From: a virus
Virus record (IMG/VR): IMGVR_UViG_3300033997_000136
Coordinates: 149,151-213,150 of that record
Reading direction: 5' to 3' (one strand)
DNA: 64,000 nt
Shown here piece after piece: positions 32,057-64,000 of this stretch (position 1 is the stretch's first letter; every line of letters starts with the position of its first letter). The notes beneath the pieces are model-generated. The model was not told the origin of the DNA, searched no databases, and was given only the letters and a program-made list of their open reading frames with translations. A program made the translations under genes and the position numbers.

Positions 32057-32065
32057 ACATTATTA
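32057..32065 (+). promoter_or_regulatory. Candidate early promoter motif, copy 1
   Basis: ACATTATTA, 16 bases before a second copy. The two together precede a short hairpin-rich stretch with a terminator and no gene. Confidence 0.45.
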
Positions 32066-44479: not shown

Positions 44480-45706
44480 TTATACGTAAAATTCCATAGC
44501 AAGCGTTCGAAGCACAATGTACAACATTAAACCAGTGCGTAACGAAGAGAGCATAGATTCATTTGTCGTTGCTGTTGCTTTCTTACAAATCGATTTGGAT
44601 TGTTCTCGGATATCAAACAACAATGGTTCTGTAGAACGAGGACTACCATATAACGATTTTAGTTTTACAAGGATTACTGCAAAACGAGTAGATGAACGCA
44701 TTAGCTCACGGTTGTTGTTTATGTAATCAAGTGCATGAAGCATGACATTATCAATCAGTTCACTGACATGTTTATCGCCCCCATGACCATGATTGTTAAC
44801 CATGTACTCAAGTGTTTCAACAAACAGTCTCTCATTCATGGTGTGAACTAAATCAACAATCACACCAATGAGTTCCTGACGGATAAATGTATCTTTATCA
44901 ATCAACACTTCATGAGCATAACGCTGCAGTTGAGAACTCTTTCTCACCAAGTCACGTAAATGGAATTCACCATCAATATTCACGGTAGATGAACGCGTTG
45001 TAATTCGAGAATTACTGTTATGCACACGTAGAAATACAGAGTACATTTTCTTTACTACTTCACGAATACGACCTTGAATATCATTTAATGATTTAACAAT
45101 ATCATCGTCAGTTGCAAAGTTTAAGATACTCGGATAACGTTTACCACGGGTATCTAAAATAGACAGTGCTCGATGGTCAATAAGTTTAGACCATGAACCA
45201 TGTTGTTTTAAACTAAACTTGTTATCAAGTGCAGCGTACGTTGCTTCCATGGTTTCACGTTTAGGTTCAAACTTAAAGTAGTTACTTCCTGTCATGAGTG
45301 ACGTGATAAAGCGATAGTGCATCACACGAATAACCGCAACACACCCTTGTTGCTTTTGTTGGGGATTTAACGTTTTACTTGTTGTGAATAAATGAATCAA
45401 GTAAAAACACGTTAAGTTAAATGTATCACTTGATACTTTAAACTCTGGGTTGATAGAGGGTAGTTTGTGTATCTCTTTTTGAAGAATGACTTCATCTACA
45501 CTTAACACTTCATCAAACCAACGATGCATGTCTGAAGCAGTAAAGACAACCCGAGGTGTGCCCATCAGATTTCCACCAAAAAAGGTGATGTTCTCTTCAC
45601 GACTGTTCACCCAGTGTCGTTCATACGTTGTAATACGTTTTAATAAAGCCGCATCAGCAGCTAAATGCCCACATTCTGTTTTGAACACTTGTAATAATGT
45701 AGCCAC
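44480..45706 (-). CDS. Unknown 408-aa helical protein
   Basis: A largely helical protein, rich in His and Arg, with no motif I know. Short helices at residues 90-130 (FNLTCFYLIHLFTTS), a basic middle and a C-terminal hydrophobic helix (LRTGLMLYIVLRTLAMEF). The 5' region (45707-45791) is divergent from the small gene at 45792 and contains the CTCTAGAATC motif. It could be a virion protein or an early regulator. Confidence 0.65.
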   Translation of the reverse strand: MATLLQVFKTECGHLAADAALLKRITTYERHWVNSREENITFFGGNLMGTPRVVFTASDMHRWFDEVLSVDEVILQKEIHKLPSINPEFKVSSDTFNLTCFYLIHLFTTSKTLNPQQKQQGCVAVIRVMHYRFITSLMTGSNYFKFEPKRETMEATYAALDNKFSLKQHGSWSKLIDHRALSILDTRGKRYPSILNFATDDDIVKSLNDIQGRIREVVKKMYSVFLRVHNSNSRITTRSSTVNIDGEFHLRDLVRKSSQLQRYAHEVLIDKDTFIRQELIGVIVDLVHTMNERLFVETLEYMVNNHGHGGDKHVSELIDNVMLHALDYINNNRELMRSSTRFAVILVKLKSLYGSPRSTEPLLFDIREQSKSICKKATATTNESMLSSLRTGLMLYIVLRTLAMEFYV

Positions 45707-46154: not shown

Positions 46155-46571
46155 ATGAACTTAACTGGCTTTTATCAAAAGAGTTATTGTCTTACCACAG
46201 GACACTGTATCAATGTCATTGGTTCAGAAGTCCACATGTACATGAAGACAGATAAGAGTATCAATTACATCGGTTCGTTAGCTGGCTTTCAAAGTCACTA
46301 CCCAGAACTGTATGCCAAGTGCAAAGAATTAGATGAAGGCTATTTAGATGTTGAGAAATCAGGATGGTCTCCTGTTTCTATTGAAATCACACGCAAAGAT
46401 AGAGTCGCGTTGCTACAGGCTATGCATAAACCCGCTGTAACGCTCTGTGTAGCATCAGACCAGCCGAACACGATTTATTTAGGCGAAGGTGTGGATGCAC
46501 TCAGTATCGCTCCGTATCGTGATTTGAGCGCGTTACAACGACTCGTCAGTATGGAGATGCATTCTGCGTAA
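46155..46571 (+). CDS. Unknown 138-aa protein
   Basis: A soluble alpha/beta protein (YCLTTGHCINVIGSEVHMYM; VTLCVASDQPNTIYLGEGV). AAAGGA precedes the ATG. An upstream leader of about 100 bases with a CCCTTAGGG element separates it from the previous terminator. Codons lean slightly toward the high-expression set. Function unknown. Confidence 0.6.
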   Translation: MNLTGFYQKSYCLTTGHCINVIGSEVHMYMKTDKSINYIGSLAGFQSHYPELYAKCKELDEGYLDVEKSGWSPVSIEITRKDRVALLQAMHKPAVTLCVASDQPNTIYLGEGVDALSIAPYRDLSALQRLVSMEMHSA

Positions 46572-46599
46572 TATTCGCTGATTTGCGTTGCCTATTTAT

Positions 46600-46812
46600 A
46601 CTCATGATCTTTATTTAGATACCTCCGGTAGGAGTAGTAGATAAATAAAGATCATTCTATCCTTAGATAGAATTAGTTAGCGTAGCTTATATAACTTTGC
46701 TCTTTTGTTTTAATGATTGTTTCTTTTAAACTACTTTATAACTTTTATCTAAAAACTAATATCTATCTTTGATTAGATAGTAACTGAGAGAGGCTTATAA
46801 GCCTCTCTCATG
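46600..46812 (+). ncRNA. Hairpin-rich noncoding stretch, candidate structured RNA
   Basis: No gene is seen here. A perfect 14-bp inverted repeat (46604-46617 with 46642-46655) encloses a CTCC/GGAG hairpin. It is followed at once by an 8-bp hairpin (46654-46661 with 46666-46673), a CTATCT/AGATAG hairpin (46763-46780) and a terminator-like stem (GAGAGAGGC...GCCTCTCTC, 46785-46808). Such density of stems is unlike ordinary leaders here. It may be a stable RNA, or a 3' region of the preceding gene; ends are approximate. Confidence 0.45.
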
Positions 46813-47169
46813 GGTTATTCTATCTCTTTTATTTTTATTAAAATAATTTTATATTTGTTTGTACTTTATTTTATGTGAATAAAAGCGGAGTACAGATAAG
46901 GAACGAAGTGGATTAGATGGACGACAACCTAACTCATCGCAGCGTAGGCGCAGCGGAGGGGTACGGAACGTACACTGTAGCGGAAATAGCCGAAGCGAGA
47001 AAACCATTACTTCTATCTTTTCGAAGGGCCAAAGGCCCTTCTATGTATGTATGTATGCAGATTATAAAGTTTTTATGTAAAAAATTATTTAATGAATAAA
47101 ACAGAATAGGAGAAGCAGATAGCTTCTCTTTTTTATATGTCTTTTTAAAAAACTATTGAGAATCTAGAT
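46813..47169 (+). other. Gene-poor stretch with a doubtful 60-codon frame
   Basis: A 60-codon frame (46917-47099) has GGAACGAAG upstream of its ATG and a product starting MDDNLTHRSVGAAEG, but its base composition changes abruptly from GC-rich to AT-rich midway. Inside lie a GTACG/CGTAC repeat, an 8-bp GAAGGGCC/GGCCCTTC hairpin (47023-47041) and four tandem TATG units. A terminator (GAGAAGC/GCTTCTC plus T-run) follows at 47110-47134. It is either a short gene or an RNA element. Confidence 0.3.
47110..47134 (+). terminator. Terminator
   Basis: A GAGAAGC/GCTTCTC 7-bp stem followed by seven T, just before the gene at 47170. Confidence 0.7.
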
Positions 47170-48060
47170 ATGAATGCAAAGTATGGCTATCATCTATCGT
47201 TTAATGGTGAGTTAGAGGGAAAGTGGATACCTAGACAACCCGATGGGTACGATGAGCAGAACAATAAAGATTCTACAATAGGGGAACCATCAGTCGCTCG
47301 AATTAGCGTAGCACCGACTATAGAAGGATGTATTCGTGCTATTTATCCAAACGTATTTAGATTCTTTGAAAAGAATAACTATCCTTACATTGATATGTAT
47401 GTGTACAGTCCAGAGAAGTTATTAAAGCGTGATGTTGTTTCTACAAAAGAGTTAACAACAAAACGCTATGTATGGGATGCACATGTAACAGGGGAGTTTT
47501 GGATTATCCATCCTGTGGTAATGAAACGTATTGCAAAGATACGGATAATGAATCCAGGAAAGAACAATGTGATGCATACGTATCCATTTAATGATAAGTC
47601 AGTGGGTGAATTGTATGACATACGCCCAGCAATCGTGGACTATAGTGTACGCGAATTGTATATTGATGAGGAAGTGAGAATGACCAGTCAAGAAACGAAG
47701 TTAGCTGCATTGATGACACGGTTACAAAGTAGTCAACAAATGCAAGAAGAAATGAAGAAGCTAATCCAGGAAGAAGCACAAGCTGTGCTTATTACTCCAG
47801 CGAACTACGACGAAGTAGATGCTGCTGAGTTTGCACTTGCGGTGCATTCGATGATTAAAGAACCTGAAAAGCATGTGGTGATTATTGCTGAAGAAGATGA
47901 TGGGGTGGTGTATACGGATGAACAAGGTCCTCGTGTACGTCAAGTCTCATCTATCTTAAAAGAAGCCGGTGTGACTGTGTATGACAGTGTAGACGCCTTT
48001 CAAGAAGTGATAGAAGGCCAAACTCATGTGACTGGGGATGATACCACAACGGTAGAATAA
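47170..48060 (+). CDS. Unknown protein with ARISVAPTI motif, paralogue of the gene at 29374
   Basis: A 296-aa protein. The first 170 residues match the layout of the 29374 protein: GKWIPRQPDG, then PSVARISVAPTIEGCIRAIYPN, an aromatic segment (NNYPYIDMYVYSPE) and TGEFWIIHPVVMKRIAKIRI. The C-terminal 110 residues are different: a Gln/Met-rich helix, then an acidic alpha/beta part. The shared region looks like a known but uncharacterised phage domain; I can give no function. A weak SD (GAGAATC) precedes the ATG. Confidence 0.65.
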   Translation: MNAKYGYHLSFNGELEGKWIPRQPDGYDEQNNKDSTIGEPSVARISVAPTIEGCIRAIYPNVFRFFEKNNYPYIDMYVYSPEKLLKRDVVSTKELTTKRYVWDAHVTGEFWIIHPVVMKRIAKIRIMNPGKNNVMHTYPFNDKSVGELYDIRPAIVDYSVRELYIDEEVRMTSQETKLAALMTRLQSSQQMQEEMKKLIQEEAQAVLITPANYDEVDAAEFALAVHSMIKEPEKHVVIIAEEDDGVVYTDEQGPRVRQVSSILKEAGVTVYDSVDAFQEVIEGQTHVTGDDTTTVE

Positions 48061-48062
48061 GC

Positions 48063-48092
48063 GAAGAGAGGAGGCTACTGCCTCCTCTCTTC
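48063..48092. terminator. Bidirectional terminator
   Basis: GAAGAGAGGAGGC and its complement, 13-bp stem with a 4-base loop, between convergent genes. Confidence 0.85.
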
Positions 48093-48096
48093 TTAG

Positions 48097-48918
48097 TTAT
48101 CCGCGATTCATCATTAAACCAATAAATTTCTTCATGCGATTTCTGTCGTTTGTAAATTGAGCTTTACCCCATTTCTCTTTAAAGATAGTTTGATACAACT
48201 CATTTGCATCTGCGTATCCTTCGACGACTTGTTTGAAGACACCTAAACTAAAACCGCCTTTGATTTTATCATCTCCTAATTTAATGATAAGATGATTGTA
48301 GACATACGCCTTGACTGCATACTCTACCATCTCAGCATAAAGTGGGAACAGGCTAGGTTTTAACGTGTTCATGTTTTCATCATGAGAGATGTTAAGCACG
48401 ACGTACAATTGTGTTGCATTAATAACCGCTTGGTCTTGCATCACAATCGTAGTAGGACCAATAGGTTCTACATGACAGGTGTTTACAATCGGTAATGATG
48501 CAACAGAGCGATACATTTCAATGGCTGCGTTAAGAAGCATATTCCCTGAAGAACGTGAGTTGGTAGGGAACCATGAATGTGCGATGTTGGTGTAGTGTAC
48601 ACTCTTTACAGAGATGATACGACGACCCCCGAGTAATTCTGCAGGGATATCGTAGGTACGTGTGTATACATCGTGGTCAGTACGTTTACATTTGTTTAAA
48701 TCCACAGCAATTTCTAAAGCACCTTTTAAACCACAGTCAACGTTGACTCGGTCATTAATGACTTTATGACGAATGTTGTGTTCTACAAAATCAAATGTGT
48801 TTGAAGGAGAATCAAAAGCACTAGCAAAGCTGCGAGGCGCAGTTTTAAACGCTTCTTTTAAAATCTCTTCAGGCACCACATGTTTAACGTGGTTTAATGC
48901 ATAGTTGATAGCGTTCAT
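48097..48918 (-). CDS. Unknown 273-aa protein, possible virion protein
   Basis: Starts at the ATG at 48918 (AAAGGAACG upstream); the frame is open to 49011 but that leader would be an improbable hydrophobic extension. The N-terminus MNAINYALNHVKHVVPEEIL is a clear amphipathic helix. The middle is beta-rich (YDIPAELLGGRRIISVKSVHY) and the C-terminus helical. The style resembles tail or baseplate proteins, but no family is confirmed. It lies opposite and divergent to the tubulin gene. Confidence 0.6.
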   Translation of the reverse strand: MNAINYALNHVKHVVPEEILKEAFKTAPRSFASAFDSPSNTFDFVEHNIRHKVINDRVNVDCGLKGALEIAVDLNKCKRTDHDVYTRTYDIPAELLGGRRIISVKSVHYTNIAHSWFPTNSRSSGNMLLNAAIEMYRSVASLPIVNTCHVEPIGPTTIVMQDQAVINATQLYVVLNISHDENMNTLKPSLFPLYAEMVEYAVKAYVYNHLIIKLGDDKIKGGFSLGVFKQVVEGYADANELYQTIFKEKWGKAQFTNDRNRMKKFIGLMMNRG

Positions 48919-49011
48919 AATGCGTTCCTTTACTACAGCATAGAGAGAATGAAATAGAAATCTATACCATAGTCTTAGATAGAAGTATGGAATAGATAAA
49001 AAATAAGACAC

Positions 49012-49020
49012 ACATTATAG
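49012..49020 (+). promoter_or_regulatory. Candidate early promoter motif of the tubulin gene
   Basis: ACATTATAG preceded by AAGACAC, 75 bases upstream of the tubulin start. It matches the RACAYACATTATNA family found at the shell-protein gene. Confidence 0.5.
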
Positions 49021-49094
49021 ATAGGATACCCCAACAAAAAGAACGGTATCTTTTGAATGAATGTATTTTGTTTATCCCCACAGGAGTTTAACAC

Positions 49095-50105
49095 ATGTCC
49101 GCAAAGAAAGAAATGCAAACTGCCACTCAATCCGCTGAAAAGAAACCAGCCGTATTACGGTTATGGGGATGTGGTGGTGCTGGTATCAATATTGCATCGC
49201 GTTACATTGACAGCAAACCTGAAGAAGGGTGTGCGATTATTAAGCCTGCGTTCTTAGACACCAGCGACAGTAACTTAGGTTCAATGGATTACCCTGACAA
49301 GTATCTGATTCCAGGTGTAAATGGTAGCGGTGCAGTGCGTGGTACAAATGCTGAACCTATCTCTAAAAGCATCAAAAACATTTTAGCGTCTATTTCACCA
49401 GGTGATGTAAACGTTATCATTAGCAGTGCCGGTGGTGGCAGCGGTGCGGTGTTCTCTGCGTTGCTAACAGGTGAACTTTTGGATATGAATCAGAAGGTGT
49501 TTGTGATTCTGATTGGTAGTACCGAATCGCGTATCCGTACTGAAAACACAATCAAGGCATTAAGTAACTTAGAGCTGATTGCTGAAGATACGAATCAGCC
49601 TGTGAACGTGCACTATTTGCAAAACGTAGAGAGTCGTACCAAAGTCGATAAAGATGCTATCGCTGCTATCGCCGCCTTTAGCTTAGTGACAAGCAACATG
49701 CATCTGGGTCTTGACCCTGAAGACATCCATAACTTCTTACGTCACCACCGTTTCACAGGTGCATCTCCACGCCTGACTATGTTAGACATTATTGTACAGA
49801 CTGAAAAGTCTGATGTGTCTGACAAGTTAGCATCGTACGACGCACCGTACAGTATCTTGTCCTTGTACAACAACCAAGACGATGTGCGCACCAACATCCC
49901 CGCAGATTACGACACGCAGGGTTTCTGTAACTTAGCGTCAAAGAGCTTGAGTGAACTTCACTTAATCACTCATGATGGCGTTGCAGTTATTTACAAACAG
50001 TTGTCTGACTTAAACCAAAAGATAGCAACTGCACGTGAAAGCGTGGTGCAACGTGAATCAATTGCCGCTGAAGGTGCTGTGAAAGGTAAACGTTTAGTTC
50101 TGTAA
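49095..50105 (+). CDS. phuZ: PhuZ/FtsZ-like phage tubulin
   Basis: A 336-aa tubulin-superfamily GTPase. The N-terminal nucleotide loop reads WGCGGAGINIA (residues 24-34), and the tubulin signature is SSAGGGSGAVF (110-120, equivalent to GGGTGSG). A LGLDPEDIHNFL segment (about 205-216) fits the catalytic T7 loop. phiKZ-group PhuZ forms filaments that centre the phage nucleus and carry capsids to it. Length is near that of PhuZ (about 315-320 aa). The C-terminus is basic (VKGKRLVL) rather than the acidic tail described for 201phi2-1 PhuZ, so filament contacts may differ. ACAGGAG precedes the ATG. A candidate early promoter lies upstream and a terminator downstream. Confidence 0.8.
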   Translation: MSAKKEMQTATQSAEKKPAVLRLWGCGGAGINIASRYIDSKPEEGCAIIKPAFLDTSDSNLGSMDYPDKYLIPGVNGSGAVRGTNAEPISKSIKNILASISPGDVNVIISSAGGGSGAVFSALLTGELLDMNQKVFVILIGSTESRIRTENTIKALSNLELIAEDTNQPVNVHYLQNVESRTKVDKDAIAAIAAFSLVTSNMHLGLDPEDIHNFLRHHRFTGASPRLTMLDIIVQTEKSDVSDKLASYDAPYSILSLYNNQDDVRTNIPADYDTQGFCNLASKSLSELHLITHDGVAVIYKQLSDLNQKIATARESVVQRESIAAEGAVKGKRLVL

Positions 50106-57322: not shown

Positions 57323-58397
57323 ACGTAGTAACGTATGGCGTAATAAAACGACTTATTTCATCTTTTACAAACCGTGGTAGTGAACGGTCAATCAACGCTT
57401 CACGAATCAGACGACGTATTTCAATCTTATCGTCACGAGACGCATCTCCTGGTGATTCACTATCTAGATGCAACACAATCCGAAGCGCAGGAATAACTGA
57501 TGCACTAAGTACCCACGCTAATTGTCGAGGAACAAAGGTATCAGGCATCTTCATTAACTGAAGATAATCTTTTGCATGGATTGGTTGTAGATTCATCAGA
57601 AACACTTCAAACGAATACGACTTCTTCGATAGGAATAACATCTGATTAAACATATACGCGTTTAAGTCTGAATCTACGTTAAGCATTGGTGTAGGTAATG
57701 ATACCAGCTCTTTATTTGGTTTGTCACCATTTAGCAGAGTTAAGAATCGATTCAAGTGTGCAACATCCTGAAAAGATTTCAACGCATTTGCCATAGGGTA
57801 TGCAACAAGGAATTGACGAACTGTTTCATAAAACGGTAAGTCTCGTTCAGCCATTGCTTTATACCAGTGGTAAAACTGAATACCTAACTTTACCATGTCG
57901 ATTTGAATGACAGCTACACCACTTGATATCGGTGTGTAGGTTCCATCAGGTAATACAACCGTTGTATCATCGACTGGATGCCTTAGGAAACGGATAGGTG
58001 TTAACGATTGCCATACGTCAGGTTGGCTTGAGCGAAGTAAATCGAAATCTTCATTTACAGTAAACAAGACTTCATTCACATTCCCTTTAAAGAAAACGCC
58101 AGTTCGTTCAGTAGTCCCTACCTGATGAACCGTCGTTATTCCGTGAGCCATCGCAACTTGTTTATACCGATGCAACAATAAACGATGCATTTCAAACACA
58201 TCAAGTGTTGGGTCAATCCGTAATGACTTTAATACAGAAACGAGAAGATGTCTATTGCTTAATGCTGACTTAGAGAAACGATACCAGCGAATTGCCTTTA
58301 CACCATTGACTTGTAGTTGCCGTCGTGTTAAGCGATAACCAGCAGGATGTGAAGTAGGGCGATTGTCACTGTAAGTCCGTGTAAAAAACTGATACAT
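57321..58397 (-). CDS. Unknown 358-aa protein
   Basis: Starts at the ATG at 58397 (AAGGA upstream); the longer frame from 58457 adds an unlikely hydrophobic leader. The first 80 residues are very basic (YRLTRRQLQVNGVKAIRWYRF), then mixed alpha/beta, with a helical C-terminus. I do not recognise the family. It is divergent from the shell-protein promoter region. Basic N-terminus and position among replication genes would fit a DNA-binding role, but this is speculation. Confidence 0.65.
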   Translation of the reverse strand: MYQFFTRTYSDNRPTSHPAGYRLTRRQLQVNGVKAIRWYRFSKSALSNRHLLVSVLKSLRIDPTLDVFEMHRLLLHRYKQVAMAHGITTVHQVGTTERTGVFFKGNVNEVLFTVNEDFDLLRSSQPDVWQSLTPIRFLRHPVDDTTVVLPDGTYTPISSGVAVIQIDMVKLGIQFYHWYKAMAERDLPFYETVRQFLVAYPMANALKSFQDVAHLNRFLTLLNGDKPNKELVSLPTPMLNVDSDLNAYMFNQMLFLSKKSYSFEVFLMNLQPIHAKDYLQLMKMPDTFVPRQLAWVLSASVIPALRIVLHLDSESPGDASRDDKIEIRRLIREALIDRSLPRFVKDEISRFITPYVTT

Positions 58398-58520
58398 ACT
58401 TGAGTCCTTACCGTGAAATAAAATAATACATGAAGAGTGGCTATAGTATGGAAACATGCATCGGGTAGCCGGTACATGTTACATATGCGCGTATATCTCT
58501 AATGAACGAGAATACAAACA

Positions 58521-58530
58521 TACATTATCA
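58521..58530 (+). promoter_or_regulatory. Candidate early promoter motif, distal copy
   Basis: TACATTATCA preceded by CAAACA, 189 bases upstream of the shell-protein start. Confidence 0.4.
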
Positions 58531-58647
58531 TTGTGGTTATACGGATTTAAAATAAAATTCTACATAGCCACCCCACAGTATGAGTTTAACTACTATCGCC
58601 TAAACGCGATAGACCTAATGATGTCGAATGAATAAAAATTCAAAGAC

Positions 58648-58656
58648 ACATTATTA
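58648..58656 (+). promoter_or_regulatory. Candidate early promoter motif, proximal copy
   Basis: ACATTATTA preceded by AAAGAC, 63 bases upstream of the shell-protein start. Confidence 0.5.
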
Positions 58657-58718
58657 ACCTGAATTCGAGATACTCTCTCGATGTTTGCGCAAATATAAAA
58701 GTCAAAACGGAGATTTTC

Positions 58719-60629
58719 ATGATTAACGACGAAAACAATAAATCGACTACTCAAGCATCTGCAGCTCCTGCTGGTGGTCGCCGCGTAGAACCCATTGATC
58801 GTACTTCTGGTGCAGACCAAGTGCAACGCACTGGTCGTTTAGGTCGTAACGTAGCCCGTGGTCGCATCGGCGAAAACGTTGCTATTATTGCGGAAGCAAT
58901 GAACAAAGCGTTAGCACAAACGTCACAAAACCAGGATTATCAGCACCGCGTGTTTCCTGTGGATGCTTCGCAAATCCAAACTCACTACAGCCTGATTTTA
59001 ACAACTGCTGAAATCGCTGTCGGTTCTCGTAAAGTCGTCACTGTGTGTACACTGATGGCTGCTGGTTCTAACAAGACGCCAGCGTCTCAACGTATCCACA
59101 TCGGTCGTGACCAAATCGCTGAACGTATCGTTGTTCCAGGCGATGGTTGGGATTTGAAGACTTGGGAAAAAGTGCAAGCACACGTGCTGCGTTTAGTTGG
59201 TGGCTCTAACCAAAACAACATCGAAGTCGTGAATGCTGGTTGTATCGTTATCCCTGAAGACTTCACAGTCGAAGACGCTAACGCTATCCAGGACATTCTG
59301 TGGGCTTCTACAGAAGCAACTGCTGCCGTTATCGAACAACAGTTCCCGAACGTATTCCCGGTATTCACTGTATCTGATTCACTTCGCAAAGACTCGCAGA
59401 AGCTGGTCGGTGTGTGGTCTGAAGATTACACAGGCGTTATCATGGATGAGATTGGTCGCCCAATCCGTTCTGACCTGAAAGTATCTGTGACTGTACAGCC
59501 GCGTGTTGAAAACCAAAACAGTGTATCTGGCTTCATGCATGAAAATGTTGAAGAACTGTGTACTGCTGCCGGTTATGTTGATTTGATCTTCACCCCACAA
59601 GACCCGGAACCTGCTGGTGCTCGTTACCGTCAACAGCAAGCACCTACCCAACAGTTTACGCCACGTATCATCATCACTAAGCTGACTGCTCCAGTGCTGA
59701 CTACTGAAACGATGCTGTTAGGTCTGGTAAACTTCTTCCTGGTCGGCGACGATTACCAATGGGCAAACCGTTTCCGTCGTGCCCACGGTAAACTGGATAA
59801 CATCGGTGCGTTAGGTTATTTAATTCCTAACCCTGAGAATCCAGATGAGTCTATGGGTAAAATCGATACCGGTGCTGCATTAAGCGATCGCGATTTTGCA
59901 AACTTAATCACCACAGTGATTGAGCATGACCCTGTGTTCTCTATTCACTGCAGTGAAACTGGTCCAGATAGCTGGTTAACAGGTATCTTCCAGGCGGCTG
60001 CTATCGAAAACACTGAGCAAATGATCAACCGTCCAAATGACCCTGAGTTCATGGGACCTGCAAACCAAGCCATTATCCAGGCGATGGACAATCTGTTCGA
60101 CAATCAGTTCTCTCCAATCTGGGGTAACCGTCCAGTCGTACACTTAGACCAAAACCGTTTAATCTATGGTACATACACTGGTCCTGAAGGCGACTTACGT
60201 GACAAACGTGATATCGACCAACTGGCCGTGTTAAACGAAGCTGGTGCTGGTAACTTAGACCTGTTCTTCGACTACGCCGCAACCTATGACGCTATCGATG
60301 TTCCAATGGACGTTCGTCTGGATACTCGTAACCGTCTGGAACGCAGCATGTCTCCGAAGAACATGAAACACGAAGGCTATATCGAAGTGGTTAACTTCGC
60401 TGCTGACTTCGCTGCTGTAGCTATCTCAGCCGCTGCTGCTGCTGATTACGCTGTAGAAGTTTCTGGTCTGACGCCGCTGTATCAACAAACTACAACCCGT
60501 GGTAACCGTTACTTAGGTCAGTTCCGTAGCCATGGCTTAGGCGCTAACCGTTTACATCAACAAAACAACGTTGGTGGTGGTAGCAACTACGGTGGTACTT
60601 ACCGTTCGTACAACCGCTTCGGTCGTTAA
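58719..60629 (+). CDS. chmA: Chimallin-like nuclear shell protein (phiKZ gp54 type)
   Basis: A 636-aa protein, almost the same length as the shell proteins of 201phi2-1 and Goslar (about 630 aa). It has flexible ends, a Ser/Thr/Ala/Arg-rich N-terminus and an Arg/Gly/Asn-rich C-tail (about residues 600-636, ending NRFGR), as expected for the segments that lock protomers into the lattice, around a folded core of about 520 residues. Codons are the most host-optimised in the window (CTG, GCT, ATC, CGT), as needed for a very abundant early product. The next gene is the nvRNAP beta' N-half, the phiKZ gp54-gp55 order. The lattice would enclose replicating DNA and exclude host nucleases. Alternative: another abundant virion protein. 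ACGGAG precedes the ATG. Confidence 0.75.
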   Translation: MINDENNKSTTQASAAPAGGRRVEPIDRTSGADQVQRTGRLGRNVARGRIGENVAIIAEAMNKALAQTSQNQDYQHRVFPVDASQIQTHYSLILTTAEIAVGSRKVVTVCTLMAAGSNKTPASQRIHIGRDQIAERIVVPGDGWDLKTWEKVQAHVLRLVGGSNQNNIEVVNAGCIVIPEDFTVEDANAIQDILWASTEATAAVIEQQFPNVFPVFTVSDSLRKDSQKLVGVWSEDYTGVIMDEIGRPIRSDLKVSVTVQPRVENQNSVSGFMHENVEELCTAAGYVDLIFTPQDPEPAGARYRQQQAPTQQFTPRIIITKLTAPVLTTETMLLGLVNFFLVGDDYQWANRFRRAHGKLDNIGALGYLIPNPENPDESMGKIDTGAALSDRDFANLITTVIEHDPVFSIHCSETGPDSWLTGIFQAAAIENTEQMINRPNDPEFMGPANQAIIQAMDNLFDNQFSPIWGNRPVVHLDQNRLIYGTYTGPEGDLRDKRDIDQLAVLNEAGAGNLDLFFDYAATYDAIDVPMDVRLDTRNRLERSMSPKNMKHEGYIEVVNFAADFAAVAISAAAAADYAVEVSGLTPLYQQTTTRGNRYLGQFRSHGLGANRLHQQNNVGGGSNYGGTYRSYNRFGR

Positions 60630-60644
60630 TGTAGTGGTATAAAG

Positions 60645-60676
60645 AGAGAAGGGGGTTTCCCCTTCTCTTCTTTTCT
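60645..60676 (+). terminator. Terminator of the shell-protein gene
   Basis: AGAGAAGGGG/CCCCTTCTCT, 10-bp stem with a GTTT loop and T-rich tail. It separates the abundant shell message from the polymerase gene. Confidence 0.85.
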
Positions 60677-60751
60677 TTATTTTTTCCCTTTTCTTTTTTC
60701 ACAGAAAGACGTAAGGATATGGTCCCCAACAAAATAAATAAAGGAGAGAAC

Positions 60752-62275
60752 GTGAGCCATTATATCGATGCCTCAGTACGTGGCGGTGTAGTACCCAAGT
60801 TCCAACCTCAAAAACAACGTTATTCTGGAATATTCTTATCAGTCCCAAACCTAGACCGCGATTATGAACAAGTAGCACATCAAGCGCGCATCATTAACCA
60901 CATTGATGCAAAAGACCCTGTGAAGATGGAAGCGTTGAATCGTCAACTCTATGTGCAATTCGAAGGTGATATCCTCGATACCACACCTAGTTGTGATTGT
61001 GGTCGCTTTCGTGGTCAACACAAAGTAGGTCTTGTGTGTCGCCCTGAACATGGTGTACGTGATGATGGTTCGTACTGTTACACTGAAGTTGCTAGTATTA
61101 CAGAACGTCCTATGGAAAGTATTTTGTGGATGACCACCCCAAAAGGGATTCATCGCTTAGTCGTTCCACGGGTATGGTTCATGTTAAGTAACTTCTTTAA
61201 GTCAGATAAGTTTAGTCCTATGGATTATCTTGCTGACCCAACGTACAGAACAAGTGACCTGCGTTCAATTGCTCGTTTAAAAGAGTTATTGGATACTGGG
61301 TGGAAACGTGGGTTAAATCAGTTTATTGAACGATTTGACGAAGCCATGGAGTTCTTAATTAAAAACCGGTTTGGGAGTGCAAAAGATGCGCAACCTCGCG
61401 AGCATTTAATTAAGTACATTGAAATGCATCGTGATAAGTTCTTTCCGCGTTACATCCCTATTCCTAACCGTGCTGTTCTTATTATTGAGAAAACACCATT
61501 AGGAACGTGGACTGACCCAACGTTGTCGTTTGGTTTAAATGCAGTACGAACAATATGTTCAATCGAAAACTCATTTATACCGTTAACACCGCGACAAATA
61601 GAGAACGCAACAATCCGTGCTATTCGTCAGTTAGCTGATTATTACGACCAGTACATCAATCGTAACGTCAGTAAGAAACCAGGTATTGCTAGACGTCAAC
61701 TTGCTGGTGGTCGATTAGACTTCTCAGCACGTGCAGTTATTAGTAGTATTCCAGGTCGACATCAATACGACGAAGTGCATATTCCGTGGGGCGTGGGTGT
61801 GATGATGTTAAAGTCACACATCACAAGTAAGTTACTTCATAGACGATATACTCCACGTCAAGCTGAAGAACTTATCTCGTTGTACACAAAACGGTATCAT
61901 CCCGTGTTAGATGAAGTTATGCAGGAACTTATCGATGAATCGCCTTATAAAGCGCTTCCTTGTATTCTCCAGCGTAACCCTACATTGACACGTGGTAGTG
62001 CTCAGTTGTTATACATTACCAAAGTTCAAACAGACCCGCGTATTAATACGTTTGCGTTTAGTGTTCTTGTACTTGCTGCATGTAACGCGGATTTCGATGG
62101 TGATGAGTTGAACATGGAGCTTCTACTGGATAGAGAAGAGCATGATAACTTTTATCGGTTATCTCCTCATTTGTATCTTTTAGATACACAGGAACCACGT
62201 AGAGTGTCTGGATTTGTAAAGATACCTGCACCTGTGATGCAAACCATCATCAACTTCATTCACGAGTTTGATTAA
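60752..62275 (+). CDS. Non-virion RNA polymerase beta' subunit, N-terminal half (phiKZ gp55-like)
   Basis: A 507-aa beta'-like protein with the catalytic loop NADFDGDELNMEL (from residue 445; D447, D449 and D451 hold magnesium). An upstream CGRFRGQHKVGLVCRPEHG stretch (about 87-105) is in the place of the beta' zinc-binding region, though with altered cysteine spacing. RQLAGGRLDFSARAVISS (about 314-331) matches the conserved [22 protein letters not shown] element. I prefer the GTG at 60752 because AAGGAGAG lies six bases upstream; the ATG at 60719 is poorly placed. As in phiKZ, the C-terminal half of beta' is not here. The non-virion polymerase makes late mRNA. Confidence 0.88.
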   Translation: MSHYIDASVRGGVVPKFQPQKQRYSGIFLSVPNLDRDYEQVAHQARIINHIDAKDPVKMEALNRQLYVQFEGDILDTTPSCDCGRFRGQHKVGLVCRPEHGVRDDGSYCYTEVASITERPMESILWMTTPKGIHRLVVPRVWFMLSNFFKSDKFSPMDYLADPTYRTSDLRSIARLKELLDTGWKRGLNQFIERFDEAMEFLIKNRFGSAKDAQPREHLIKYIEMHRDKFFPRYIPIPNRAVLIIEKTPLGTWTDPTLSFGLNAVRTICSIENSFIPLTPRQIENATIRAIRQLADYYDQYINRNVSKKPGIARRQLAGGRLDFSARAVISSIPGRHQYDEVHIPWGVGVMMLKSHITSKLLHRRYTPRQAEELISLYTKRYHPVLDEVMQELIDESPYKALPCILQRNPTLTRGSAQLLYITKVQTDPRINTFAFSVLVLAACNADFDGDELNMELLLDREEHDNFYRLSPHLYLLDTQEPRRVSGFVKIPAPVMQTIINFIHEFD

Positions 62276-62289
62276 CAGAGGACTTCACA

Positions 62290-62907
62290 ATGGCTCAAAT
62301 GGTCTCAATGGACCCAGGTCTATTTAGACATCGTGTGTATGGTGAACGTAACGAGAGTACCATGCAATTCATTCAGAATGCATACGAGGGTTCTCGCGAT
62401 ATTCTTCAACGCACAAGTTCAGCTATGCTTGAACGTATCGAGCAGTCATGGGAGAAATATTCATCTGAAGCATCGCAGCGACGTTTAAAAGCGGCTGCAC
62501 GTAATATAGAAAACGGTTGGAAAGGAAACCGTGTTCGACCATTGCGTAGCATCGGTGAACTTCAAACTGCACCACCTATTATGCAACGTTACATGATGGC
62601 AGAACCTACAACACGTGCTCGTTATCAACGAGGTCAATGTGAAGGGTTCCGTGGTAGCTATGTTGATTTGTTTGAAGGACAAATTAGCTATGGTCACTAC
62701 GATTGGCGTCGTGTGATGGATGGTATGATAGAAGAGGATAGCGAAGGGTATATGGTTGTACACGAATTTGGTGATGACTTACTGTCGGGAGACGTTGAGT
62801 TAGAGTTTGACCAGAAACGTTCAATCAGAGATACTTGGGCATTTCAAGTTGCCGCATTTGCTAAGGATGAAGATGATCCTACAAGCAGATGGAACGCTTC
62901 CTTGTAA
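62290..62907 (+). CDS. Unknown 205-aa protein downstream of the nvRNAP gene
   Basis: A basic, helical N-terminal half (ERIEQSWEKYSSEASQRRLKAAARNIENGWK) and an aromatic, acidic C-terminal half (QISYGHYDWRRVMDGMIEED). CAGAGGA precedes the ATG. It starts 14 bases after the polymerase gene and shares its transcript, so a link to transcription or to the nucleus is possible but not shown. Confidence 0.65.
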   Translation: MAQMVSMDPGLFRHRVYGERNESTMQFIQNAYEGSRDILQRTSSAMLERIEQSWEKYSSEASQRRLKAAARNIENGWKGNRVRPLRSIGELQTAPPIMQRYMMAEPTTRARYQRGQCEGFRGSYVDLFEGQISYGHYDWRRVMDGMIEEDSEGYMVVHEFGDDLLSGDVELEFDQKRSIRDTWAFQVAAFAKDEDDPTSRWNASL

Positions 62908-62916
62908 CCTAATAAC

Positions 62917-62947
62917 GAGAAGGGGTAACCCCCTTCTCTTATTTTTT
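62917..62947 (+). terminator. Terminator
   Basis: GAGAAGGGG/CCCCTTCTC 9-bp stem with a short loop, followed by six T. Confidence 0.85.
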
Positions 62948-62955
62948 GACGGGAC

Positions 62956-63357
62956 ATGAACATGGCGAAGTTATTAGCAACATTGGATACAGGTGGGTGG
63001 GTGCGAGACCCATTAACAATTGCAACGAAGTTAATGGATTACTATAAAGCAACAGAACACTCACAGTCCAATGAGTTTCAAGCAACAACGTATTCATTGG
63101 CGTATTTAGTCCAACAATACGGAAATAAACCTGAAGACTTTGCCAGTAATATGGAACGAGAGTTGCAAAGCATATTCGGTTCACATTTTGAAATGGCGAC
63201 CGTAAGTGTTAGACCCAATAAAGAAGGTGACGAAAATGGATACTTTGGTGTAGATATCGATGTAAAAATCCAGCAGGGTGGAGAAAACTATTCCCTCGGT
63301 GCTTTACTCATTACATCGTCCAGTAACGTCATTAGTTATCAAATCAAAACTGCTTAG
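62956..63357 (+). CDS. Unknown 133-aa protein
   Basis: A soluble protein, helical at first (DPLTIATKLMDYYKATEHSQ) and beta-rich at the end (GENYSLGALLITSSSNVISYQI), with an acidic Gly/Asp turn region in between (NKEGDENGYFGVDIDV). Weak SD (ACGGGAC). A second ATG at 62962 is also possible. Layout recalls phage wedge or baseplate small proteins, but no family is confirmed. Confidence 0.6.
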   Translation: MNMAKLLATLDTGGWVRDPLTIATKLMDYYKATEHSQSNEFQATTYSLAYLVQQYGNKPEDFASNMERELQSIFGSHFEMATVSVRPNKEGDENGYFGVDIDVKIQQGGENYSLGALLITSSSNVISYQIKTA

Positions 63358-63375
63358 TAAAAGGTATTAAAAGTC

Positions 63376-63957
63376 ATGCAAATCCAATTAGATTTACGGA
63401 ACCATTTGATTACTCGTTTAAATCAGTTACAGGCGAATGCAAACAATCTCGCCCATCAACTTGAACACATGGTTACTGAAATTCAAGAAGTCAGTAAAGT
63501 GATTATGACTATCCCAGCGGTGATGTCTGAAGCTCAGATGCAACAAATCATAGACAACATTCAACAGAATGGTGATATTGTTTTCTCAACTGACTTTAAC
63601 CGAGCCACAGCATTGGGTTTTATTACTCACCATATTGAAGATGGTTCGCCGATTTATACATTTGAGTCAGTCCACACTGAAATCACCGTAGAGACTGCTC
63701 CAATCTATCAACGTCTGACCGAGATGTACTCTGCCGACATTAAAGCAATTATGGACGCAACAGGCAGCACAACAGTTTGGTTCTATGTAAAACCAAAACC
63801 AGTCCCTGTTGTGGATGATACCCACGTAGTACAACAAACAACTGAACAGGTTGCTGTTGAAGCAGTGAAAACTGAAACAACCAATGTGGTTGTTGAATCT
63901 CAAAACGTAACGGACCCAGTCCAAATTAACACAGCCGATGGCGGCACATCAGAATAA
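63376..63957 (+). CDS. Unknown 193-aa coiled-coil protein
   Basis: A helical coiled-coil N-terminus (residues 5-50, LRNHLITRLNQLQANANNLAHQ) leads into a mixed middle and a long Val/Thr/Gln-rich, probably disordered tail (about 150-193). AAAAGG precedes the ATG. It follows the previous gene by 18 bases. Function unknown; oligomerisation through the coiled coil is likely. Confidence 0.6.
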   Translation: MQIQLDLRNHLITRLNQLQANANNLAHQLEHMVTEIQEVSKVIMTIPAVMSEAQMQQIIDNIQQNGDIVFSTDFNRATALGFITHHIEDGSPIYTFESVHTEITVETAPIYQRLTEMYSADIKAIMDATGSTTVWFYVKPKPVPVVDDTHVVQQTTEQVAVEAVKTETTNVVVESQNVTDPVQINTADGGTSE

Positions 63958-63964
63958 ATAATAC

Positions 63965-63990
63965 GGACTCAGAGCATCCTCTGAGTCCTT
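63965..63990 (+). terminator. Terminator
   Basis: GGACTCAGAG/CTCTGAGTCC 10-bp stem with a CATC loop right after the last gene; the T-run is short. Confidence 0.7.
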
Positions 63991-64000
63991 AACCTTGTAT

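Follow-up and report, generated by a model that had tools for sequence, protein, structure and literature searches.

Genes and features of the locus

The window, the whole 64-kb stretch of DNA analysed here, covers the final 64 kb of a virus record 213,150 bases long. This record belongs to a PhuZ-encoding jumbo phage, and its terminase and PhuZ have their relatives among phiKZ-like phages. The largest intergenic gap of the window (46572-47169, 598 bp) is flanked upstream by a 138-aa ORF, for which a search for relatives found none, and is the subject of this report (Table 1). None of the tools used detected a protein in this gap, and a search for tRNAs and tmRNA returned none. An earlier reading made from the sequence only had noted a lack of coding capacity at 46600-46812, and indeed no ORF of at least 40 aa overlaps these positions on either strand. 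TATG sites occur around hairpin A at 46550, inside the 138-aa gene, and next at 46872; TATG enrichment upstream of genes was not seen in the window.

Table 1. Features of the gene-free gap and its surroundings; positions refer to the window unless an accession is given
Feature	Position	Strand	Remarks
Left border gene, phrog_2921	44480-45706	-	phiKZ gp32 homologue
138-aa ORF	46155-46571	+	stop 32 nt before hairpin A
Hairpin A	46604-46655	+	AT-rich stem (14 bp, perfect) carrying a GA/GA 2x2 mismatch and a TAC/GTA helix; the apical 14 nt contain CTCC-GGTA-GGAG
Hairpin B	46654-46673	+	8-bp inverted repeat (46654-46661/46666-46673), 4-nt loop
Predicted long-range stem	46664-46770	+	TAGATAGAATTAGTT side with AACTAATATCTATCT side, folding prediction
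Imperfect hairpin	46757-46765/46774-46782		8/9 paired
Perfect 26-nt palindrome TGAGAGAGGCTTATAAGCCTCTCTCA	46785-46810	.	terminator-like, without a T-run directly after
Predicted long irregular stem	46811-46930	+	stacked helices of 6, 7, 8 and 14 bp; start of the putative homologous unit
End-to-end match of model R1	46838-47042	+	score 11.3 bits (window-wide E 0.012), run with filters off
Purine-rich, T-poor GC patch	46884-47013	+	AGCGA/GGAACGAAGTG words
Terminator-like hairpin GAAGGGCC-AAA-GGCCCTTC	47023-47041	+	aligned to the relatives' terminator in the R1 alignment
Terminator-like hairpin with T-run	47108-47130	+	ahead of a 296-aa gene
Right border gene, phrog_3179	48097-49011	-	phiKZ gp42 homologue
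PhuZ phage tubulin	49095-50105	+	phrog_4733, 8.8e-72
Unannotated unit of phage pPa_SNUABM_DT01	MW735835.1 119627-119836		no annotated feature there
DT01-type relatives in IMG/VR			L082, L083, L086, L089, L092, L120, L140

Two observations concern the window at large. The word ACATTAT, in part as ACATTATTAA, occurs six times in the 19 intergenic gaps checked compared to 0.5 in shuffles (positions 32057, 32073, 49012, 50262, 58522 and 58648) and is a candidate promoter or operator of the phage. The 68-kb contig G001 was compared with the window over 47613-50000 and 58000-64000, is identical to it in both parts, and reaches about 51.6 kb past the window's end, so that the 213-kb record could be extended or closed.

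Hairpins of the upstream half

The most conspicuous element of the gap is hairpin A. Its arms (46604-46617, ATGATCTTTATTTA, and 46642-46655, TAAATAAAGATCAT) form a perfect 14-bp inverted repeat, and the 24-nt spacer in turn encloses the mismatch pair, a 3-bp helix and the small apical hairpin. That such a repeat encloses a smaller hairpin had been claimed beforehand; it is confirmed in the sequence, and the length of the arms exceeds what chance produces. When inverted repeats with spacers of up to 40 nt were counted in the window and in 20 simulated windows (order-1 Markov), the window yielded four with arms of at least 14, whereas no arm in the simulations exceeded 12. The other three are GC-richer and of the terminator type with loops of 3-4 nt, which makes the AT-rich hairpin A with its structured 24-nt top unique in the window. 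The hairpin (46600-46660) folds with -23.5 kcal/mol (z -5.2), and the sequence from 46604 to 46785 has a GC content of 25%.

The 8-bp hairpin described as directly following the repeat does exist (hairpin B); however, it shares 2 nt with the stem of hairpin A and therefore only 6 bp can form beside it. The 'two more' hairpins of the same description correspond to the imperfect hairpin and to the palindrome, which resembles the other intergenic hairpins of the window phage in style. Folding energy on its own does not reveal the strand since z is low on both: for 46572-46830 it amounts to -5.0 on the plus and -6.3 on the minus strand. The entire region from 46590 to 47045 gives z -6.5 and -134.7 kcal/mol on the plus strand versus z -7.0 and -122.4 kcal/mol on the minus strand, the plus strand thus having the greater absolute stability. 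Further downstream, 46811-47045 folds with z -3.9, a value matched by none of 200 shuffles.

A syntenic interval in relatives

Searches for DNA relatives of the stretch among phages returned none, and neither did searches for its exact patterns in viral contigs; the sole identical contig ends at position 47613 of the window and does not cover the stretch. The nearest relatives found to cover the region share about 51% identity in the terminase (among the best 80 of 416) and about 49% in phrog_2921. No copy of the 14-bp repeat was found in these relatives of about 50% identity, nor was a second copy of the element found in the 213-kb record.

The locus was compared across 83 loci, comprising the best 80 of 416 terminase relatives from IMG/VR and three named phages. 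Near the terminase, 64 of the 83 carry phrog_2921, 32 phrog_3179 and 27 PhuZ, with many loci ending early; in phiKZ, gp32 (phrog_2921), gp39 (PhuZ) and gp42 (phrog_3179) lie close together. The interval from phrog_2921 to phrog_3179/PhuZ is syntenic in relatives and often gene-free, and the genes between its borders vary. Gaps of at least 250 bp number 46 within the interval versus 28 outside it, near-duplicate loci being counted here. The position of the window unit is established by its neighbours: phrog_2921 is found to one side and phrog_3179/PhuZ to the other, and the unit runs on the strand opposite to that of phrog_2921. For the patch scan, the patch search and the GA/GA counts below, 24 loci judged by eye to be near-duplicates (from the contig table and marker-gene matches) were left out.

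Two named phages hold features of separate interest. In Vibrio phage pir03, the gene of a TROVE (Ro60-like) protein (L012:14912-16462) follows the terminase at a distance of a few genes; a Y-RNA reading prompted by this gene was dropped because the record of the window has no TROVE match. In phiKZ the gap between gp37 and gp38 (L096:11121-11367), within the syntenic interval, is gene-free and contains TAGTATATTATG followed by a long hairpin with GGGGGGG.

Purine-rich patches and the DT01-type unit

Judged by eye, locus L041 displays the order of elements seen in the window, namely a long AT-rich hairpin capped by a small GC hairpin, then a palindrome, then a purine-rich patch poor in T, and finally a terminator. 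In a count of purine-rich words, themselves taken from these same sequences, L041 and the window score highest of all places, both in the interval and on the same strand. Similar patches are present in L026, L025 and L038. With the L026 patch as query, the top five matches are the window, L092, L082, L089 and L041, all in the interval on the sense strand, and the patches of the window and L026 are mutual best matches by raw score (165, followed by 132 in the case of the window and 161 in that of L026). With the L038 patch as query the others were not found. Shuffle z-scores for pairs of patches seemed promising, but values as high or higher turned up elsewhere when all loci were scanned, and the scores were therefore not used. 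GA-hairpin scoring within the window patch does not rise above shuffles (28 of 200 reach it).

The unit takes its clearest form in L092, L082 and L089, where the terminator of the upstream gene is followed by TGTATAGTATGC, a purine-rich RNA with a hairpin, and a terminator. This form led us to Pseudomonas phage pPa_SNUABM_DT01 (DT01 hereafter). DT01-type units consist of a TATG promoter-like site, a covarying AT-rich hairpin with GA/GA mismatches, a purine-rich body and a terminator. Covariation of the hairpin in these relatives is established: all 11 pairs are kept in eight aligned sequences (88/88 cells paired) and four of the 11 have changed on both sides, which none of 500 shuffles reach. 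In most of the eight, the top of the hairpin reads GA/GA, C-G, GA/GA, A-U, C-G and a GAA loop. At the start of the unit TATGC is invariant (8/8, or 9/9 with L075). The late promoter of phiKZ is TATG, and transcription starts at its G (PMC4666361).

Hairpin A of the window features the same GA/GA step directly on an AT-rich stem. Among 62 non-redundant sequences, stems of at least 8 topped by GA/GA are found in the interval on the sense strand in 7/7 cases, compared to 14/151 for all other 2x2 loops; the seven represent three lineages (the DT01 group, L075 and the window), and the feature was picked after they had been seen. One GA/GA hairpin lies outside the interval in L093, a near-duplicate that had been dropped. 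No GA/GA hairpin was found in 11 loci obtained later, and none with a stem of at least 7 in stretches of seven named phages. The loop CGAACGAAGTGAG (C, GA/GA, AC, GAA, GT) may be a widespread stable hairpin loop: 17 of its 44 pattern matches sit on AT-rich stems of at least 7 bp with differing arms, nine of the 17 being of the DT01 type, and it sits on such stems also in L099, L101, L103, L106, L121, L128, L131 and L137, viral contigs not linked to the DT01-type units.

A covariance model of the relatives matches the gap

The covariance model R1 was built from the eight DT01-type sequences only, with the window excluded. Over its full length it matches 46838-47042 within the gap, and this match is the best in the 64-kb window, albeit with a weak score (the next reaches 7.2 bits). 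With default or first-look filters in wider searches R1 did not report the window unit. Hairpin A lies outside the match, the AT stem topped by GA/GA being situated upstream of it. In the more distant contigs L025, L041 and L038 the best match of R1 is the very unit that had been picked by eye beforehand (16.1, 13.7 and 11.8 bits, respectively), and L075 is matched with 14.9 bits (E 0.013, 1.13 Mb searched, default filters). L026 gave partial matches only and L018 none at the block that had been picked.

In a later test, 11 loci were obtained through phrog_2921 and then searched with R1. Eight of the 14 matches, including the best two and six of the best seven, fall in the interval on the predicted strand, the interval making up about one fifth of the sequence searched and the loci behind the matches including the near-identical pairs L155/L156 and L149/L150. 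Four of the 11 loci (L151, L153, L157 and L158) gave no match. Inspection of the sequences at L155 and L150 reveals a purine-rich patch and a terminator of the kind seen in the units above.

What the locus may encode

Three options had been put forward by the sequence-only reading: a structured RNA, a replication or packaging site, or a dimeric protein-binding site. A structured RNA is favoured among them, since the covariance model of the relatives matches the same gene-free stretch. The interval that had been singled out, 46600-46812, holds the upstream half only, and the homologous part lies at 46838-47042. The stretch is most likely a structured noncoding RNA. We consider it rather probable that 46572-47169 is a plus-strand noncoding RNA locus of a PhuZ-type jumbo phage, its downstream half being a distant homologue of the DT01 unit and its upstream half a GA/GA hairpin of like kind.

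According to this explanation, the downstream half (46838-47042) would be distantly homologous to the structured, purine-rich RNA unit that occupies the same place in DT01 and uncultured relatives, where a TATG late-promoter-like site and a terminator enclose it. Transcription of the window unit itself is predicted, and a start at TATG 46872 would cut the predicted long stem of 46811-46930. The upstream half (46604-46812) would either belong to the same long RNA as its 5' domain or be a small RNA of its own with its end at the palindrome. Hairpin A is of the DT01 kind but lies upstream of the R1 match; it may thus represent a 5' domain, a small RNA in its own right or the processed 3' UTR of the 138-aa gene. 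The function is most likely that of a protein-binding RNA made late in infection, a role suggested by the retention of the GA/GA steps. A bolder proposal, which we regard as unlikely, envisages an RNA family that holds its place next to the tubulin locus throughout the PhuZ jumbo phages, even though its sequence diverges until it is hardly recognisable; it would be transcribed by the late phage polymerase and act as a protein-binding scaffold in phage-nucleus biology, with the GA/GA hairpin as the recognition element.

For the upstream half, the main competing reading is a processed 3' UTR, although on balance it is doubtful. Here 46604-46812 would be the 3' end of the mRNA of the 138-aa gene, with hairpin A protecting the end or being excised as a small RNA and the palindrome serving as terminator. 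The stop codon of that gene lies 32 nt before hairpin A with no TATG between the two, and an abundant phiKZ RNA of about 100 nt with two stem-loops is assumed to be processed from the PHIKZ298 3' UTR (PMC8545117). On the other hand, 180 nt of structured sequence exceed most gene ends in the phage, which mostly consist of one compact hairpin, the next unit (to 47041) has no gene ahead of its terminator, and DT01-type units are set off from the upstream gene by that gene's own terminator. The locus could alternatively act as DNA: an AT-rich region that unwinds and extrudes hairpins would then be a replication origin or protein-binding site, and the purine-rich transcript would form an R-loop. 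The low GC content at 46604-46785 next to a purine-rich strand would suit such an element, and GA/GA steps and GAA triloops are very stable in DNA, too. We nevertheless deem it very unlikely: the GC skew does not turn near 46.6 kb, which also leaves the earlier proposal of a replication site without support for an origin, the units are closed by terminator-like hairpins, the motif keeps the same orientation with respect to its neighbours, and a second copy is lacking in the 213-kb record.

That the purine-rich body is a sponge titrating a CsrA/RsmA-type host protein via GGA motifs is not well supported, and we judge it highly improbable. GGA occurs seven times in 147 nt of the window unit where mononucleotide shuffles give 3.8 (13 of 300 have at least as many), and 15 times versus 8.9 in L092; there is, however, no enrichment in L041 (3 vs 5.5) or L025 (4 vs 4.3), nor any kind of Rfam match. 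If the preferred explanation of a noncoding RNA locus is correct, an RNA gene of these viruses has been missed by annotation, which in jumbo-phage genomes covers almost only proteins and tRNAs. Direct tests are feasible for a position-conserved unit that occurs in a cultured Pseudomonas phage and shows covariation as well as the marks of a promoter and a terminator.

Comparison with known systems

Rfam 15 yielded nothing at the gathering threshold for the window and its relatives, the best permissive match (E 0.093) lying far under it. A literature search whose reach did not extend to preprints and most subscription papers found no report of a DT01-type unit. For phiKZ, two candidate noncoding RNAs, the PHIKZ298 3'-UTR ncRNA and the p40 5'-UTR ncRNA, are described (PMC8545117), and phiKZ noncoding RNAs are also mentioned in a review (PMC13282480). 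Like the unit proposed here, they are small structured RNAs that a PhuZ jumbo phage makes from untranslated regions, with two stem-loops of which the second is perhaps a terminator; unlike it, they are reported as mRNA parts of other genes (PMC8545117), and the likeness is one of description. With default filters, R1 found no match in phiKZ 20000-60000 (L096), which holds the syntenic interval.

Erwinia phage RAY possesses an unannotated 516-bp gap downstream of the terminase (L146:17189-17704), in which a terminator, TATAGTATTATGC, GGGGG, a 12-bp AT hairpin and a second terminator follow one another; it differs in having no GA/GA hairpin and no R1 match (default filters). Within this gap, 331 bp are at least 98% identical in 16/16 matching Erwinia phage records.

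The unit of DT01 and its IMG/VR relatives differs from the window in that hairpin and body form one short unit with the hairpin flanked by G runs, whereas in the window the long hairpin is located about 230 nt upstream of the body with the palindrome between them. The two are alike in their syntenic interval and strand, where the neighbours are present, in their hairpin, purine-rich body and terminator, and in the end-to-end match of R1.
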